Both the position numbers and the translations under genes were made by a program. Under the pieces are notes generated by a model. That model had not been told where the DNA came from. It made no database searches and saw nothing but the letters and a program-made list of their open reading frames with translations. 64,000 bases of DNA. Source: Erythrobacter sp. WG (lineage in GTDB: Bacteria > Pseudomonadota > Alphaproteobacteria > Sphingomonadales > Sphingomonadaceae). Of this stretch, positions 6,762-41,047 are shown piece after piece (positions within the stretch are counted from its first letter, which is position 1; the number at the start of each line of letters is the position of its first letter). Location of the stretch: contig NZ_JAPFGY010000003.1 of NCBI RefSeq assembly GCF_026586795.1, positions 1 to 64,000 on the forward strand, read 5' to 3'.

Positions 6762-6826
6762 CCGTTCGCCTCGAGCGCAGTCGAGAGGCCAGTACACGGT
6801 GTCTCGACTTCGCTCGACACGAACGG
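6762..6826. repeat. Class A palindromic repeat between ilvB and ilvN
   Basis: The element opens with CCGTTCGCCTCGAGCG and a GTCGAGAGGC arm and closes with TGTCTCGACTTCGCTCG and ACACGAACGG. Its two halves form a long imperfect hairpin. It matches the copies at 35073-35138 and 35153-35220 almost base for base. Its position inside the ilvBNC operon means it is transcribed. Confidence 0.85.
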
Positions 6827-32842: not shown

Positions 32843-34702
32843 TCAGGCGGTATCCTTCGTCCCGGCGACGGGTGCCGCCTTGCGGCGCCCGAAGGCCTTC
32901 AACCGTTCCTCGACTGCCATGAGCTGCGTGCGCAGGCGGGTCTGCTCGGCAAACGATCCTTCCGGATCGCTGTCGAAACGGGCGATCGTGGCCGCAAGCG
33001 CAGCCTCAAGCGCCGGCCTTTCGACCAGCAGCGACACAGCTTCGGCCAGCTCCTCGCACGCAGCGTCGGGATCGGTGCCTTCATCGAGAAAGGCGTAGCG
33101 GGTATCTGCCGACGGGACGGGTTGGCCTTGCGTGGCTGTGCATATGGCGGTTGCGTCGCGCGAATCAAGCGTTTCCGCAAGTTCGAAGAGGGATTCGATG
33201 AAGGGGGCGGCGCCGCGATCATGCCGGGCGAGGGCGGAGAGCGCCTCGGCATGGCGCGCGATCTGCCCCGGATAGCGTGCAAGCCCCCCCAGCACCGCCG
33301 CGAGCAGCCCCTGTCGCTGCGCCCCTGCCATGATCGCCGCAAGCCGCCCGCGCGCCTCGTCCGAGAGGCCGGGCGGGGGCATCGCGGCGCCCTTCCACGG
33401 CCCGCGCCGCGCGGGGGCGGACGGACGGGGCGGACGGGGCGGGTAGGCGAAGGCCGAGAAGCGGTCCGAAAGCTCGCGGCGGTAGAGGCTCTTCACTTCG
33501 GGATCGGCGATGGTCTCGACATGGGCCATGAGCCGCGCCTTCAGCCCGGCCTTGGCCTCGGGGGTGGCGAGCGGCTGCGCGTCGCGCTCGAACTCCCACA
33601 GCGCGTCGATGAGGCTGGCGGGCCGGGCGAGGAGGTCCTCCATCGCCCTGGCCCCTTGCGCCTTGACGAGGTCGTCGGGATCGAGCCCCGCCGGCAGCCG
33701 CACGATGGCGAGCGATCGCATCGGGCCAAGCAGCGGCAGGGCGCGGGTGATGGCCCGCATCGCCGCGCGCTGGCCCGCCGCATCGCCGTCGAAGCACAAG
33801 ACCGGCACCTCGACCATGCGCCACAGCATCTCGAGCTGCATTTCGGTCAGCGCCGTCCCCAAGGGCGCGACCACGTCGGCGATCCCCGCGTTGGCGAGCG
33901 CGATCACGTCCATGTAGCCCTCGACCACCACCACCCGCCCCGACTGGCGCGCGGCGGGCGCGGCGCGGTGGAGATTGTAGAGGGTGCGCCCCTTGTCGAA
34001 GAGCTCGGTGTCGGGGGAGTTGAGGTATTTCGCCACCCCGTCGCGTTGCCCGAGGATCCGCCCCCCGAAGGCGATCACCCGCCCGCGCTGGTCCTGGATC
34101 GGGAGCATGACACGCCCCCGGAAGCGGTCGTAGCGCTCGCCAGCCTCGTTGCTCGCGCGCATCCCGGCGCCCTCGAGCATATCCTCGCCGAAAGCGGGCA
34201 GGGCGCGGGGGAGCGCCTGCCGGTCATCGGGCGCCCAGCCGAAGCCGAATTCGCGCATCACCTGCGGGGAAAACCCGCGCCGCTGGAGATAGTCCCGCGC
34301 CGCCGCGCCGGAAGGCCCGGCGAGGCTCTCGACGTAGAACTTCTGCGCCGCCTCGGTCACGTCGATCAGGCTGGCGCGGGCCTCGGCCTTCTTCGCCTGC
34401 ACCGGATCGGGGGCGGGGACCTCCATCCCGGCGATGCCCGCCAGCTCCTTGATGGCGTCCATGAAGGCGAGGCCCTGGTTGTCGACCATCCAGCTGATCG
34501 CATCGCCATGCGCCCCGCAGCCGAAGCAGTGGTAGAACTGCTTGCTGTCGTTGACGTAGAAGCTCGGCGTCTTCTCGTCGTGGAACGGACAACACCCCTT
34601 CCACTCGCGCCCCGCCCGGGTGAGCTTGACCGACCGCTGGACAAGCGAGGACAACGTGATCCGCGCACGCAGCTCGTCCTTCCATTGCGGGGTGATGGCC
34701 AT
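32843..34702 (-). CDS. dnaG: DNA primase
   Basis: DnaG synthesises RNA primers at the replication fork. The 619-residue protein has an N-terminal CHC2 zinc finger (CCPFHDEKTPSFYV and FYHCFGCGAHGD, about residues 37-65), a TOPRIM core with VVVVEGYMDVIAL near 260 and DGDAAGQRAA near 308, and a C-terminal helicase-binding region. An AGGA motif before the ATG serves as ribosome-binding site. Its usual upstream neighbour in this group is yqeY, but here a GIY-YIG gene and repeats lie between. Confidence 0.98.
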   Translation of the reverse strand: MAITPQWKDELRARITLSSLVQRSVKLTRAGREWKGCCPFHDEKTPSFYVNDSKQFYHCFGCGAHGDAISWMVDNQGLAFMDAIKELAGIAGMEVPAPDPVQAKKAEARASLIDVTEAAQKFYVESLAGPSGAAARDYLQRRGFSPQVMREFGFGWAPDDRQALPRALPAFGEDMLEGAGMRASNEAGERYDRFRGRVMLPIQDQRGRVIAFGGRILGQRDGVAKYLNSPDTELFDKGRTLYNLHRAAPAARQSGRVVVVEGYMDVIALANAGIADVVAPLGTALTEMQLEMLWRMVEVPVLCFDGDAAGQRAAMRAITRALPLLGPMRSLAIVRLPAGLDPDDLVKAQGARAMEDLLARPASLIDALWEFERDAQPLATPEAKAGLKARLMAHVETIADPEVKSLYRRELSDRFSAFAYPPRPPRPSAPARRGPWKGAAMPPPGLSDEARGRLAAIMAGAQRQGLLAAVLGGLARYPGQIARHAEALSALARHDRGAAPFIESLFELAETLDSRDATAICTATQGQPVPSADTRYAFLDEGTDPDAACEELAEAVSLLVERPALEAALAATIARFDSDPEGSFAEQTRLRTQLMAVEERLKAFGRRKAAPVAGTKDTA

Positions 34703-34708
34703 GGGGTC

Positions 34709-35059
34709 CTACTGCGCCCCATCCCCGTTCGTGTCGAGCGCAGTCGAGACACCTATCGGTGGAGTGCCTGTGGATCGTTCCGAAGGCGGCTTGGCGAAGT
34801 GCGAAAGCGCCTGCCAGTCGGACCGCGCGAGAGCCTCCTTCTTGGCGCGCGACCATTTCTTCACGCGCAGCTCCGCATCGAGAGCTTCGTATCGCGTCGG
34901 GAAATCTTCCGCCCACAGCAGCGTTACAGGACGGCGCTTCGACGTGAAATCGCAGTGACCATCGTGCTGATGTTCGGCAACCCGGCGATCGAGATCATCG
35001 GTATGCCCGGTGTAATATTTGCCGTCGGAACAGCGCAATATGTAGCACCAGAAGGCCAT
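34709..35059 (-). CDS. GIY-YIG nuclease domain protein
   Basis: A 116-residue single-domain GIY-YIG protein. The N-terminal signature is WCYILRCSDGKYYTGHT with DDLDRRVAEHQ, containing the catalytic Tyr and Arg. EALDAELRVKKWSRAKKEAL follows, and an RRPVTLLWAEDF strand lies between. Residues from about 92 on (the segment GTPPIGVSTALDTNGDGAQ) are translated from a class A palindromic repeat that overlaps the 3' end. Further repeat copies begin 14 bases upstream of the start. The gene therefore sits between repeats in a normally conserved yqeY-dnaG junction. GIY-YIG proteins of this small type have few assigned functions; nuclease activity is inferred. Confidence 0.88.
   Translation of the reverse strand: MAFWCYILRCSDGKYYTGHTDDLDRRVAEHQHDGHCDFTSKRRPVTLLWAEDFPTRYEALDAELRVKKWSRAKKEALARSDWQALSHFAKPPSERSTGTPPIGVSTALDTNGDGAQ
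34725..34752. repeat. Class A repeat, single arm, at the 3' end of the GIY-YIG gene
   Basis: CCGTTCGTGTCGAGCG followed by CAGTCGAGACAC matches the outer arm of the full class A elements at 35073-35220, in the TGTC-type version. It is read as the C-terminal residues of the GIY-YIG protein and lies 23 bases upstream of the dnaG start. Confidence 0.8.
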
Positions 35060-35072
35060 CCCTGCCTCATAC

Positions 35073-35138
35073 CCGTTCGCCTCGAGCGAAGTCGAGAGGC
35101 CATCGCAACTGTGTCTCGACTACGCTCGACACGAACGG
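35073..35138. repeat. Class A palindromic repeat, tandem copy 1
   Basis: The element opens with CCGTTCGCCTCGAGCG/AAGTCGAGAGGC and closes with TGTCTCGACTACGCTCG/ACACGAACGG. Left and right arms are complementary over most of their length, giving a roughly 28-bp hairpin with an 8-12-base loop. It lies 14 bases from the start of the GIY-YIG gene. Confidence 0.9.
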
Positions 35139-35152
35139 AGGTTTGATGAGAT

Positions 35153-35220
35153 CCGTTCGCCTCGAGCGAAGTCGAGAGGCTGCCTCGCACAGGTGTCTCG
35201 ACTTCGCTCGACACGACCGG
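35153..35220. repeat. Class A palindromic repeat, tandem copy 2
   Basis: This is a second full copy in the same orientation, 14 bases after the first, with one change in the terminal box (ACACGACCGG). It ends 11 bases before the yqeY stop codon. The two copies fill most of the 172-base gap between the GIY-YIG and yqeY genes. Confidence 0.9.
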
Positions 35221-35231
35221 AAGGGGTGGAA

Positions 35232-35684
35232 CTACGAAAGCGCCGCCTTCACCAGCCCGCTCGCGAGCTTCCCGTCGATCACCGCGCCGTGCCGCGCTTT
35301 CAGCTCGGCCATGACGGTGCCCATGTCCTTCATGCTCGATGCACCCGTCTCCGCCTTGATAGCCTCGATCGCCGCGCGGGTGGCGGCCTCGTCCATCATC
35401 TGCGGCAGAAATTCCTCGATCACCGCGAGCTCCGCGCGCTCGACCGCCGCAAGCTCCGCGCGGCCGCCATTGTCGTACATCTCGATCGATTCGCGGCGCT
35501 GCTTGGCCATCTTCTGGAGCACGCTCACCACCAGCTCGTCGTCGGGCGTGGGCTTCGACGCGGTGCGCTCCTCGATGTCGCGGTCCTTGATCTTGGCGGC
35601 GATCTGGCGGAGCGCGGCGGTGCGGTCCTTTTCGCCTGCCTTCATCGCGGCGATGGTGGCGGCCTTGATGTCGTCACGGATCAT
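35232..35684 (-). CDS. yqeY: GatB/YqeY domain protein
   Basis: A 150-residue YqeY protein: MIRDDIKAATIAAMKAGEKDRTAALR at the start, an IEEFLPQMMDEAATRAAIEAI segment near 90 and a MGTVMAELKARHGAVIDGKLASGLVK C-terminus, as in the tRNA-binding tail domain of GatB. It is thought to interact with tRNA or aminoacyl-tRNA metabolism, but its role is unproven. The ATG at 35684 is the family start. It is divergent from carA, with 140 bases between that should hold both promoters. Confidence 0.93.
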   Translation of the reverse strand: MIRDDIKAATIAAMKAGEKDRTAALRQIAAKIKDRDIEERTASKPTPDDELVVSVLQKMAKQRRESIEMYDNGGRAELAAVERAELAVIEEFLPQMMDEAATRAAIEAIKAETGASSMKDMGTVMAELKARHGAVIDGKLASGLVKAALS

Positions 35685-35824
35685 TTCGATATTCCTGTGG
35701 ATGGGGTTGCGGCCCGCGCCCCTAACGCAATTCAAGGCACACGCCTAGGTTGACGGCAGGGGGCGAGGGGCCTAGCGGGCAAAACTTAGCACCATCGCCG
35801 GTAACACCATCAACGGAGCGCCCC

Positions 35825-37177
35825 ATGGCCGACCCCGCACCCTCTCGCGCGCAACCTTCAGGGGCGTTTAACAGTGGGCGCCCCTCGGGGGCGACGGGAG
35901 TCCTCGTCCTGGCTGATGGCACGGTGCTGTGGGGCAGGGGCTTCGGCCATGTCGGCGCGAGCGTGGGCGAGGTGTGCTTCAACACCGCGATGACCGGCTA
36001 CCAGGAGATCATGACCGATCCCTCCTACGCAGCCCAGATCGTCACCTTCACCTTCCCGCATATCGGCAATGTCGGCGCCAATGGTGAAGACGTCGAGAGC
36101 AAGGTGGAGGGCGCGGTCGGCTGCGTGGTGCGCGAGGACGTGACCGAGCCCTCCAACTTCCGTTCGGCCGAGCGGTTCGTCGAGTGGATGGCGAGGAACG
36201 GCAAGATTGGGCTGGCGGGCATCGACACCCGCGCATTGACCCGCCGCATCCGCCATTCCGGCGCGCCCAATGCGGTGATCGCCCACGCGCCGGACGGCAA
36301 GTTCGACCTCGACGCCCTGCTGAAGCGCGCGCAGGAGTGGCCGGGGCTCGAGGGCATGGACCTCGCGATCCGCGTCACCCGCGACAAGCACGAGGGCTGG
36401 GAGGGCGGCTACTGGACCCTCGGCAAGGGCTACGGCCGCGCGCCCTGGTCGAAAAAACCCGCCCCGTCGGTGGCGGGCAAACAATCCCCGTTCGTGTCGA
36501 GCGACGTCGAGACACAAGGCGAAGGCCTCTCGACTGACGACAGAATGTCGGCAGTTCATCCTGAGCCTGCCGAAGGGCTCGAGGCGAACGGAGGCGGCGA
36601 TTTGCCTCATGTCGTCGCGATCGACTACGGCTCCAAGGACAACATCTTCCGCAATCTGGTGAAAGCCGGGGCGCGGGTGACGGTGGTGCCCGCCAAGACC
36701 TCGTTCGACGAAGTGATGGCCTTGCAGCCCGACGGCGTGTTCCTCTCCAACGGCCCGGGCGATCCGGCGGCGACGGGCGAATATGCCGTGCCGGTGATCA
36801 GGGCGCTGCTCGATGCGGATGTGCCGCTGTTCGGCATCTGCCTCGGCCACCAGATGCTCGCGCTCGCCGCGGGGGCGAAGACGATCAAGATGCACCAGGG
36901 CCACCGCGGCGCGAACCACCCTGTCCAGCGCGTCGGCGAGGGCTGGGGGGAGACCACCGGCCTCGTCGAGATCACCTCGATGAACCACGGCTTCGCGGTG
37001 GACGCGGCGACCTTGCCCGAAGGTGTGGAGCAGACCCATGTTTCGCTGTTCGATGGGACGAATTGCGGGATCGCGATCAAGGGCAAGCGGGCGTTTGCGG
37101 TGCAGTATCACCCCGAGGCGAGCCCGGGGCCGCAGGACAGCTTCTATCTGTTCGAGAAGTTCGTGGGGGGGCTGTGA
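35825..37177 (+). CDS. carA: Carbamoyl-phosphate synthase small subunit, with in-frame repeat insertion
   Basis: CarA hydrolyses glutamine and delivers ammonia to CarB for arginine and pyrimidine synthesis. The 450-residue protein is about 40-60 residues longer than usual. The N-terminal domain ([38 protein letters not shown]) and the class I glutaminase (catalytic Cys339 in FGICLGHQM, His429 and Glu431 in YHPEA) are intact. Between them, at about residues 220-257, lies a hydrophilic stretch encoded by a palindromic repeat (36488-36591) with no family counterpart. The insertion keeps the frame and falls in the interdomain linker, so activity is probably retained. The start at 35825 was preferred over 35750. 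Confidence 0.96.
36488..36591. repeat. Mosaic palindromic repeat inside carA
   Basis: The element opens with CCGTTCGTGTCGAGCGACGT and CGAGACAC (class A arm, as at 34725). It contains GTTCATCCTGAGCCTGCCGA, which resembles the element upstream of ychF, and closes with CTCGAGGCGAACGG (class A arm of the CCTC type). Outer ends are inverted repeats. It is translated in the carA frame without a stop codon. Confidence 0.88.
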
Positions 37178-37193
37178 TGGCTCAGCCAACATA

Positions 37194-37229
37194 CTCCCTT
37201 CCCCTTGGGGAAGGGTTGGGGATGGGGGT
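37194..37229. repeat. Class B repeat, inverted copy, after carA
   Basis: The core is the 20-bp palindrome CCCTTCCCCTTGGGGAAGGG (37196-37215), followed by TTGGGGATGGGGGT. It is the reverse orientation of the copies at 37270 and 37663. It begins 17 bases after the carA stop. Confidence 0.88.
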
Positions 37230-37269
37230 TCGGCGGTGAGGGGGCAGGGCTACTCATCGGGTGTGGAGC

Positions 37270-37303
37270 ACCCATCCCCAACCCCTTCCCTCAAGGGAAG
37301 GGG
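37270..37303. repeat. Class B repeat at the 3' end of the DUF559 gene
   Basis: ACCCATCCCCAACCCC is followed by TTCCCTCAAGGGAAGGGG, forming a palindromic core of about 20 bp. It ends one base before the stop codon of the DUF559 gene. The 37230-37269 stretch between this copy and the inverted copy has no feature. Confidence 0.9.
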
Positions 37304-37304
37304 C

Positions 37305-37655
37305 CTAGCGATTTCGCGCTATGGCTATCTCTTGCGCAATTACCGTCAGAACGCCGTCCAAGTTCTCGAGAACCTCGTTGTTCCAGAAGCGGATCACGCG
37401 GTAACCGTGGGCCTCGATGATGCGCGTGCGGTTCGCGTCGGCGGCACTGCCGGAATGCTGCCCGCCGTCGAGTTCGATGGCGAGGCGCAGGCTCCGGCAC
37501 GCGAAGTCGGCGATGAAGTTGCCGATGGGAAACTGCCGGGTGAACTTGGCGCCCTCGAAGCGGCTCGCGCGCAGGTGCAGCCACAGGCGCTGCTCCGCAT
37601 CGGTCGCATTGTTGCGCAGGTTGCGCGCGAGGCCTGTCAGTTTCTTCTCCGCCAT
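37305..37655 (-). CDS. DUF559 endonuclease-like protein (Vsr/PD-(D/E)XK fold)
   Basis: A 116-residue DUF559 protein. It has the family opening [20 protein letters not shown], the central [20 protein letters not shown] with QH (Asp, Glu and Asp/Gln positions of a Vsr-like nuclease site) and the C-terminal [18 protein letters not shown]. Nuclease activity is inferred from the fold. It is encoded antisense between carA and carB, which are normally adjacent. Near-identical palindromic repeats lie 1 base beyond its stop (37270-37303) and 7 bases before its start (37663-37698), so gene plus repeats look like one inserted unit. Confidence 0.9.
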
Positions 37656-37662
37656 CGTGGCA

Positions 37663-37698
37663 CACCCATCCCCAACCCCTTCCCTCGAGGGAAGGGGC
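37663..37698. repeat. Class B repeat at the 5' end of the DUF559 gene
   Basis: ACCCATCCCCAACCCC with the core CCCCTTCCCTCGAGGGAAGGGG (a perfect 22-bp palindrome at positions 37676-37697) is a direct repeat of the copy at 37270. It lies between the DUF559 start and carB, 22 bases upstream of the carB ATG. Confidence 0.9.
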
Positions 37699-37720
37699 TT
37701 TCAATAGCAAAGCTCACCTG

Positions 37721-41047
<3,327 letters not shown>

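Follow-up and report, generated by a model that had tools for sequence, protein, structure and literature searches.

Genes for REP-associated tyrosine transposases (RAYTs) are flanked by their own type of repetitive extragenic palindrome (REP), the REPs occurring mostly as inverted pairs, and RAYTs are described as vertically inherited, with higher repeat numbers where the gene is present, in the parts of two reports available to us (PMC3116915, PMC8049555). A different class of REPs is defined by a CGTC tag, an AT at the stem base, a CCA tail and an arrangement in head-to-head pairs. As set out in the available part of PMC3733652, to which all our statements on that paper refer, these CGTC REPs occur in five phyla, mainly in Alphaproteobacteria and with several families per genome, and include dRS3 of Neisseria and the Rickettsia palindromic elements RPE-4 and RPE-6, RPE elements being found inside Rickettsia genes. 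After inspection of transposase genes they were said there to 'apparently lack a dedicated transposase', their mechanism of spread was left open in 2013, and that part of the text contains no occurrence of 'giy'. Here we analyse a 64,000-nucleotide stretch of Erythrobacter sp. WG (contig NZ_JAPFGY010000003.1, positions 1 to 64,000; hereafter the window), in which a small GIY-YIG nuclease gene lies among palindromic repeats of one class (class A) and a small DUF559 nuclease gene lies among repeats of another (class B). We propose that the GIY-YIG gene probably encodes a partner enzyme dedicated to the class A repeats that surround it and is one case of a widespread arrangement; the pairing of gene and repeat is observed, and from it we infer that the enzyme may cut the repeats and promote their movement. 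By analogy with RAYTs, which serve GTAG-tagged REPs, a small nuclease of this kind would likely serve one CGTC- or CGTT-tagged REP-pair family. Among the matches listed for open-access full text, with preprints and most subscription journals outside the scope of the search, no publication connected REP-like repeats with genes of the GIY-YIG or the DUF559 type.

In the window, yqeY, the GIY-YIG gene and dnaG follow one another on the minus strand, and the DUF559 gene lies, also on the minus strand, between carA and carB. The GIY-YIG gene (34709..35059, minus strand; 116 amino acids; Pfam PF01541, 60.7 bits) encodes a clade I enzyme of the class A type. Two head-to-head class A pairs, neither assigned to a strand, separate it from yqeY, one directly 5' of its start codon (35073..35138) and one adjoining the yqeY stop codon (35153..35220). 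On its 3' side a class A REP (34725..34752, minus strand) overlaps the end of the gene, lying within the C-terminal codons of the open reading frame and forming its end. The DUF559 gene (37305..37655; 116 amino acids; PF04480, 131.4 bits), whose product has a Vsr fold, is flanked by class B repeats that are 2 and 9 nt away from its frame and differ from each other by 1 mismatch, at 37270..37303 on the 3' side and at 37664..37697 on the 5' side (both plus strand; folding z = -2.7 for the latter); a diverged inverted copy, identified by eye, lies at about 37194..37229 (minus strand). The Pfam matches of the two proteins are PF01541 (GIY-YIG) and PF04480/PF18741 only. The original prediction, made on the window alone, had described this flanking of each nuclease gene by its own repeat class, and it was borne out at these positions.

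The class A core is present in 117 copies in the 3.31-Mb genome compared with 1 for the reversed control pattern, so the repeats exceed chance, and in a sample of 463 kb, 20 of 25 copies belong to head-to-head pairs with outward-facing tags and a start-to-start distance of 39-44 nt, a predominance of inverted pairs that is shared with REP doublets forming hairpins (REPINs) and their RAYTs. Besides a 700-amino-acid UvrC-like frame, the genome encodes four small GIY-YIG genes, and all four are bracketed by one repeat, a different one for each: class A, P (CCCTGAGCTTGTCGAAGGG-like), H (CGTCATTGCGAG...CAATCC) and D (CCCCGGGCTTGACCCGGGG). There are also four DUF559 genes, three of which are bracketed by a C-rich/G-rich palindrome that differs in variant from gene to gene; at the fourth, a D-type pair stands on just one side. 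Counting of class B by the pattern GGGAGAGGGTTGGG was discarded, because the reversed control was itself part of the repeat and hence void.

The enrichment of nucleases beside their repeats elsewhere, which the original prediction had named as its check, was looked for and found. To score bracketing, the 450 nt to the left and the 450 nt to the right of the domain were aligned locally with each other and the best score was taken, with a threshold of at least 20; UvrC genes (the same GIY-YIG domain), ParE toxin genes (small and mobile), HNH genes and shifted positions in the same loci served as controls. In the bacterial family, the same repeat was found on both sides in 70 of 92 GIY-YIG loci and 37 of 49 DUF559 loci, compared with 0/20 for UvrC, 1/30 for ParE and 0/30 for HNH (Fisher tests against UvrC and ParE together, 1.2e-19 for GIY-YIG and 1.3e-15 for DUF559). 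Shifted positions were bracketed in 0/152 cases for GIY-YIG, 2/68 for DUF559, 0/39 for UvrC and 0/31 for ParE, and the outcome was the same at thresholds from 16 to 25 (Fisher at most 1.1e-12 for GIY-YIG and at most 2.2e-10 for DUF559, against the same two controls). These family counts are without the cut-off loci (L053; L191; L070, L075, L087, L216) and without 13 small GIY-YIG matches, counted by eye among the matches listed; the DUF559 sample includes 20 further loci taken from the matches listed. Some loci represent one site recurring in several genera, and counts of independent sites, which allow for this, gave 41/54 bracketed for GIY-YIG and 22/28 for DUF559. Across the phylum, 18 of 27 DUF559 loci were bracketed, compared with 1 of 27 controls.

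Bracketing of GIY-YIG genes recurs in other phyla. Among the best 80 loci for clade II GIY-YIG proteins in named genomes of other taxa, 70 had flanks of at least 450 nt and were used; 55 of these were bracketed, compared with 5/255 shifted positions, and the bracketed loci include Elusimicrobiota, Chlorobiota, Myxococcota and Bdellovibrionota. One record labelled 'Frankia' is among the 55; its repeat resembles that of Bradyrhizobium, and it may be contamination. In five further named records (Neisseria gonorrhoeae, Sinorhizobium meliloti pSymB, Azospirillum lipoferum 4B, Novosphingobium aromaticivorans pNL2 and Rhizobium sp. CIAT894) the GIY-YIG gene lies between copies of one repeat in all five cases, compared with 0/5 shifted positions; the first four belong to species or genera listed as carriers of CGTC repeats (PMC3733652). 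The gonococcal gene is flanked by ATTCCCGC...GCGGGAAT, which, following the same paper, we equate with dRS3. The protein of locus L003 gave no tblastn match among 50,697 phage records.

The type of repeat follows the clade of the enzyme. Repeats linked to GIY-YIG genes mostly start with CGTC or CGTT, that of the window being the CGTT variant, and 66 of the 92 loci could be typed by a repeat motif present in both flanks, 45 with CGTC types (S, M, D and H) and 21 with CGTT types (A and P). The S and M types agree with the definition of CGTC REPs, and H and D share the tag and differ in the stem; class A and P repeats differ from CGTC REPs in their CGTT tag and imperfect stem, and class A singles fold like shuffled sequence. 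In a tree built from the protein domain only, with the 26 untyped loci as a separate group, 33 label changes were required compared with 57.8 after shuffling (none of 200 shuffles as low), and a deep split sets the A and P enzymes apart from the S, M, D and H enzymes. Protein and repeat similarity were correlated (Mantel r 0.56, 70 loci, 0/2000), with r of about 0.5 inside each of the two deep clades. When each site was represented by a single locus, the correlation persisted (r 0.52, n=39, 0/5000), as did the clustering on the tree (34 typed rows; 9 changes compared with 20.5 shuffled, 0/200). As in REPIN/RAYT systems, the gene is flanked by its own REP type (70/92) and the type follows the protein clade. 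A stricter rule, by which H repeats would accompany all the nearest kin of the H-type enzyme, was rejected as only partial (both flanks in 23/70, either flank in 32/70); many of the remaining loci carry further CGTC types.

Repeat numbers are also higher where the enzyme gene is present, as described for RAYTs. For genome sets chosen from the GIY-YIG tree (L405 left out), the ten genomes with a clade-A enzyme contain 4, 33, 52, 55, 57, 112, 117, 132, 135 and 201 class A cores, and the 49 others contain 100, 42, 36, 23, 15, 8, 7 and 3, followed by 0 or 1 in 41 of the 49 (p 1.6e-7, in a test that ignores the relatedness of genomes). For the M type, the 14 genomes that have a clade-M enzyme contain 0 to 56 cores and the 45 others at most 13 (p 6e-6, relatedness again ignored).

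The geometry of the repeats points in the same direction. At 50 of the 64 loci typed by a directional motif, the innermost repeats face the gene from both sides ('>gene<'). Among 20 M-type pairs selected from those listed for two genomes, the spacer is 47 nt in 16, 48 nt in 3 and 56 nt in 1, and the outer ends both carry CGTC; two M-type GIY-YIG elements of the same genomes have identical ends, the gene replacing the spacer, and the M-type GIY-YIG element and the common pair look like the full and the miniature form of one element. At some loci of the H and A types, whole pairs may stand on either side of the gene. The REP pairs fold strongly as single-stranded DNA (z = -6.1 for class A, measured on the pair at 35073..35138, and -4.6 for M), and single class B and S repeats fold well (rows L134:1944-1976 and L150 left out of the folding analysis). 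As a separate observation, an M-type pair in another genome (G033 C1:668039-668420) is 368 nt apart, the spacing of a GIY-YIG-bearing element, with no GIY-YIG gene there among the matches listed; it possibly marks a decayed gene.

The two nucleases have unrelated folds. Across 43 aligned GIY-YIG sequences Tyr6, Tyr16, Gly18, His30 and Glu63 are invariant and Arg26 is present in at least 90%; we take these to be the catalytic residues of GIY-YIG nucleases. In DUF559, Glu61, Asp63 and His67 are invariant across 40 sequences. AlphaFold models had a mean predicted local distance difference test score of 84 (GIY-YIG) and 90 (DUF559). The GIY-YIG model matched HIGLE (Z 7.8), Slx1 (6sei, Z 7.2), I-TevI (6.8) and UvrC (6.8); all these scores are below 8, yet the top 16 rows are all GIY-YIG proteins, and Pfam concurs. 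The nearest solved sequences, 1zg2 and 1ywl, are of the UPF0213/Slx1 type, a type that is also among the nearest folds; we know of no tie of such proteins to repeats. The DUF559 model matched gonococcal NGO0050 (3hrl, Z 15.7), I-Bth0305I (3r3p, Z 12.6) and Vsr (1cw0, Z 9.8), the last over 97 residues at a root-mean-square deviation of 2.5, which indicates a Vsr-like fold. These three proteins share the fold of the DUF559 protein; unlike for the DUF559 gene, the literature examined describes no REP bracketing for them.

The class-A GIY-YIG genes have a fixed home. All ten, in ten genera, lie between yqeY and dnaG, which in the window are at 35232..35684 and 32843..34702, respectively (both minus strand), upstream and downstream of the nuclease gene; two of the ten loci (L037 and L132) have about 800-900 nt of extra DNA ahead of yqeY. 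The divergence of the nuclease follows that of YqeY (r 0.53, 3/5000) and DnaG (r 0.43, 29/5000) across 12 loci, including two extra from the genus of the window. The original prediction had the nucleases invading these gene blocks, a view that, taken as a recent event, is rejected for the GIY-YIG gene on these data. In a sample of 25 same-genus loci out of 30, our own included, the junction contains the GIY-YIG gene with class A repeats in 3, is bare (18-102 nt) in 12, and contains REP pairs of other types in 5, an S-like hairpin in 2 and about 830 nt of other DNA in 3. Residence of the RAYT kind, with loss, fits a gene that keeps to one site, descends vertically and is present only patchily, the class-A gene being an old resident that was patchily lost or that homes at one site. 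In the five loci with other REP pairs (L300, L303, L304, L307 and L309) these are of the P or D type, depending on the relative, and are just behind the yqeY stop codon; in all seven GIY-YIG-free junctions with a repeat or hairpin (L300, L301, L303-L305, L307 and L309) a CTCGACA... stretch resembling half a class A repeat stands just before dnaG, possibly as the scar of a lost GIY-YIG element and possibly as native sequence.

That such junctions accept repeats without a nuclease (5/25, plus 2 with another hairpin), and that either DUF559 or GIY-YIG genes may occupy yqeY-dnaG, is what would be expected if repeats and dispensable small genes merely gathered in permissive junctions without any functional link. 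Under this explanation, however, the small mobile ParE genes, the HNH genes and the shifted positions should have been bracketed as well, which they were not, and the matching of clade to repeat type should not have survived the reduction to one locus per site; we regard hitch-hiking of this kind, already disfavoured for GIY-YIG, as highly improbable.

The fixed site bears on homing too. T4 Seg proteins are free-standing GIY-YIG homing endonucleases, and the genes described here resemble such endonucleases (the kin of I-TevI) in their fold, in being lone small intergenic genes and in their patchy presence at a fixed site. In a homing scenario the nuclease gene would be the mobile unit, cutting home-junction alleles that lack it, or a lone REP pair there, and repair from the filled copy would install the gene together with its flanking repeats, the dispersed repeats being cut sites or by-products. 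Both enzymes resemble homing endonucleases by fold (I-TevI for GIY-YIG, I-Bth0305I for DUF559), and patchy presence at a fixed site would fit, with the gene at yqeY-dnaG in 3/25 same-genus genomes and yet all ten class-A genes of ten genera at this one place. The parallel divergence of the nuclease with YqeY and DnaG is instead expected of vertical descent, and homing alone leaves up to about 200 dispersed copies, tied to the presence of the enzyme, unexplained; unlike free-standing homing endonucleases, moreover, these genes lie between copies of dispersed palindromes, and the copies across the genome go with the enzyme. We therefore consider homing an unlikely explanation. Residence at one site with co-divergence of the neighbours would agree with a housekeeping role, in which a host enzyme cuts or resolves the cruciforms of REP pairs and is kept by repeat-rich genomes, the repeats at its own gene having arisen by autoregulation or capture. 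The near folds, HIGLE and the branched-DNA nuclease Slx1, and the strong folding of the REP pairs (z -6.1 and -4.6) would suit it; a repeat type specific to the enzyme clade on both sides of the gene, the preferred orientation of these repeats and the patchiness of the gene between close relatives are left unexplained, and a housekeeping role appears slightly less probable still than homing.

The proposal that the GIY-YIG nuclease is the partner of its REP pairs draws instead on the bracketing, on the match between clade and repeat type, on copy numbers that vary with the enzyme, on the same arrangement in other phyla and on the fixed home site. The nuclease would be structure-selective; it would recognize the hairpin or cruciform of a REP pair and cut at or near the CGTC or CGTT tag, after which host replication or repair would copy the pair to new places; the REP pairs would thus spread in trans while the nuclease gene stays at its home site, for example yqeY-dnaG. 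Because the enzyme is a GIY-YIG nuclease and not an HUH tyrosine transposase, and the tag is CGTC or CGTT and not GTAG, the arrangement is by definition not a RAYT system, yet judging by the parallels it appears to work like one, and the REP/RAYT-like logic with a different enzyme fold that had been suggested for the window is well supported for GIY-YIG.

Several observations weigh against this proposal. Twenty-two of the 92 GIY-YIG loci have no flanking repeat at the threshold of 20. Five genomes have 100, 42, 36, 23 and 15 class A cores without a clade-A enzyme, and one genome with such an enzyme has 4 cores only; likewise, one M-clade genome has 0 M cores and two genomes without an M-clade enzyme carry 13, and the copy-number statistics ignore the kinship of the genomes. 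On the first GIY-YIG tree the P labels are the least clustered type (8 changes compared with 9.7, 16/500). A division of labour with one enzyme per repeat type in each genome was not seen, as 6 of 77 within-genome pairs were alike with 5.6 expected, and 689 of 1000 shuffles were as low or lower. Single class A repeats fold no better than shuffled sequences (47 and 74 of 200 as good), and the same is true of single P (24 of 200) and H repeats (87 of 200), so that the pair or the cruciform is the likelier substrate. Binding, cutting and movement of REP pairs are themselves predictions, and the model has to call on host functions, because a nuclease that works by hydrolysis is unable to join ends by itself. 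For DUF559, the correlation between protein and repeat similarity (r 0.41 over all 37 loci, 0/2000) drops to 0.18 when each site contributes a single locus (n=18, 204/5000).

This last result makes the matching of DUF559 clade to repeat weak and the code insecure, so that of the two nuclease-palindrome pairs originally suggested, that of GIY-YIG is well supported, and for DUF559 the bracketing is supported and just as strong. The DUF559 brackets are nearly always of one C-rich/G-rich palindrome class, and the protein is probably a second, unrelated enzyme doing likewise for CCCTCTCCC...GGGAGAGGG-like repeats, with less evidence than for GIY-YIG. An explanation applying to DUF559 only would make it a mismatch-repair endonuclease linked to a solitary cytosine methyltransferase, with the repeats incidental. 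Such a role has been proposed for the Caulobacter DUF559-domain protein VsrA in the available part of PMC12907096, and the match to the Vsr fold would suit it; bracketing of 37/49 and 18/27 loci, nearly always by one palindrome class, is unexpected of a repair gene, and we hold this role, too, to be unlikely. The broader idea that GIY-YIG and Vsr-like DUF559 nucleases are each the engine of their own dispersed palindrome class across bacteria, a transposase-free mode of propagation, is advanced tentatively, as a possibility that falls somewhat short of probable.

The GIY-YIG genes are strong candidates for the missing enzyme of a widespread class of CGTC REPs that has been said to have none, and a candidate enzyme together with a code linking nuclease clade to repeat type makes the spread of CGTC REPs directly testable. 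If the proposal is true, populations of REP-type repeats would be run by enzymes unable to join DNA themselves. Under the broader idea that covers both nuclease folds, structure-specific cutting combined with host repair would represent a mode of genome mobility that is general and has as yet no name, and the gene-bearing REP pair would be the full element of which the common REP pair is the miniature.

The home sites of the two nucleases overlap. DUF559 genes were found between yqeY and dnaG in four loci of other genera (L063, L064, L082 and L199), so two unrelated nucleases share home sites. In the window, carA (35825..37177) and carB (37721..41047), both on the plus strand, enclose the DUF559 gene, and in a sample of 21 same-genus loci out of 30, our own included, in which the carA end was found, the DUF559 protein scores at this junction in 3; one more same-genus locus has an apparent 5' remnant of the gene with a class B repeat, and other genera provide three more loci. 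Both junctions had been described as normally tight in alphaproteobacteria, which is rejected for carA-carB in this genus, where the junction measures 266-1197 nt in 18 of 21 genomes. By eye, this junction (L329-L348) is species-variable and mostly contains sequence resembling different small genes.

Some GIY-YIG frames run through the 3' repeat region into the next gene as apparent fusions: L002 (1492-2190), L042, L030, L031, L032, L034 and L044, of which L031 and L032 are without a clear repeat on both sides. The partners are presumably a JAB-like domain (L002 and L042), a TrmJ-like RNA methyltransferase (L030, L031, L032 and L034) and alanine racemase (L044).

Elsewhere in the window, class A REPs also occur away from the nuclease genes. 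A stand-alone REP pair without a nuclease is at 6762..6826 (no strand assigned), and, beyond what the original prediction had listed, an in-frame insertion of class A and P-type (CCTGAGC..GAAGG) repeats occupies a linker of CarA (about 36487..36592, plus strand). Judged by eye, the same linker carries in-frame repeat insertions in 3 of the 15 same-genus loci in range (the window, L343 and L337), with three different repeat make-ups across the three loci, and these insertions resemble the Rickettsia palindromic elements found within proteins.

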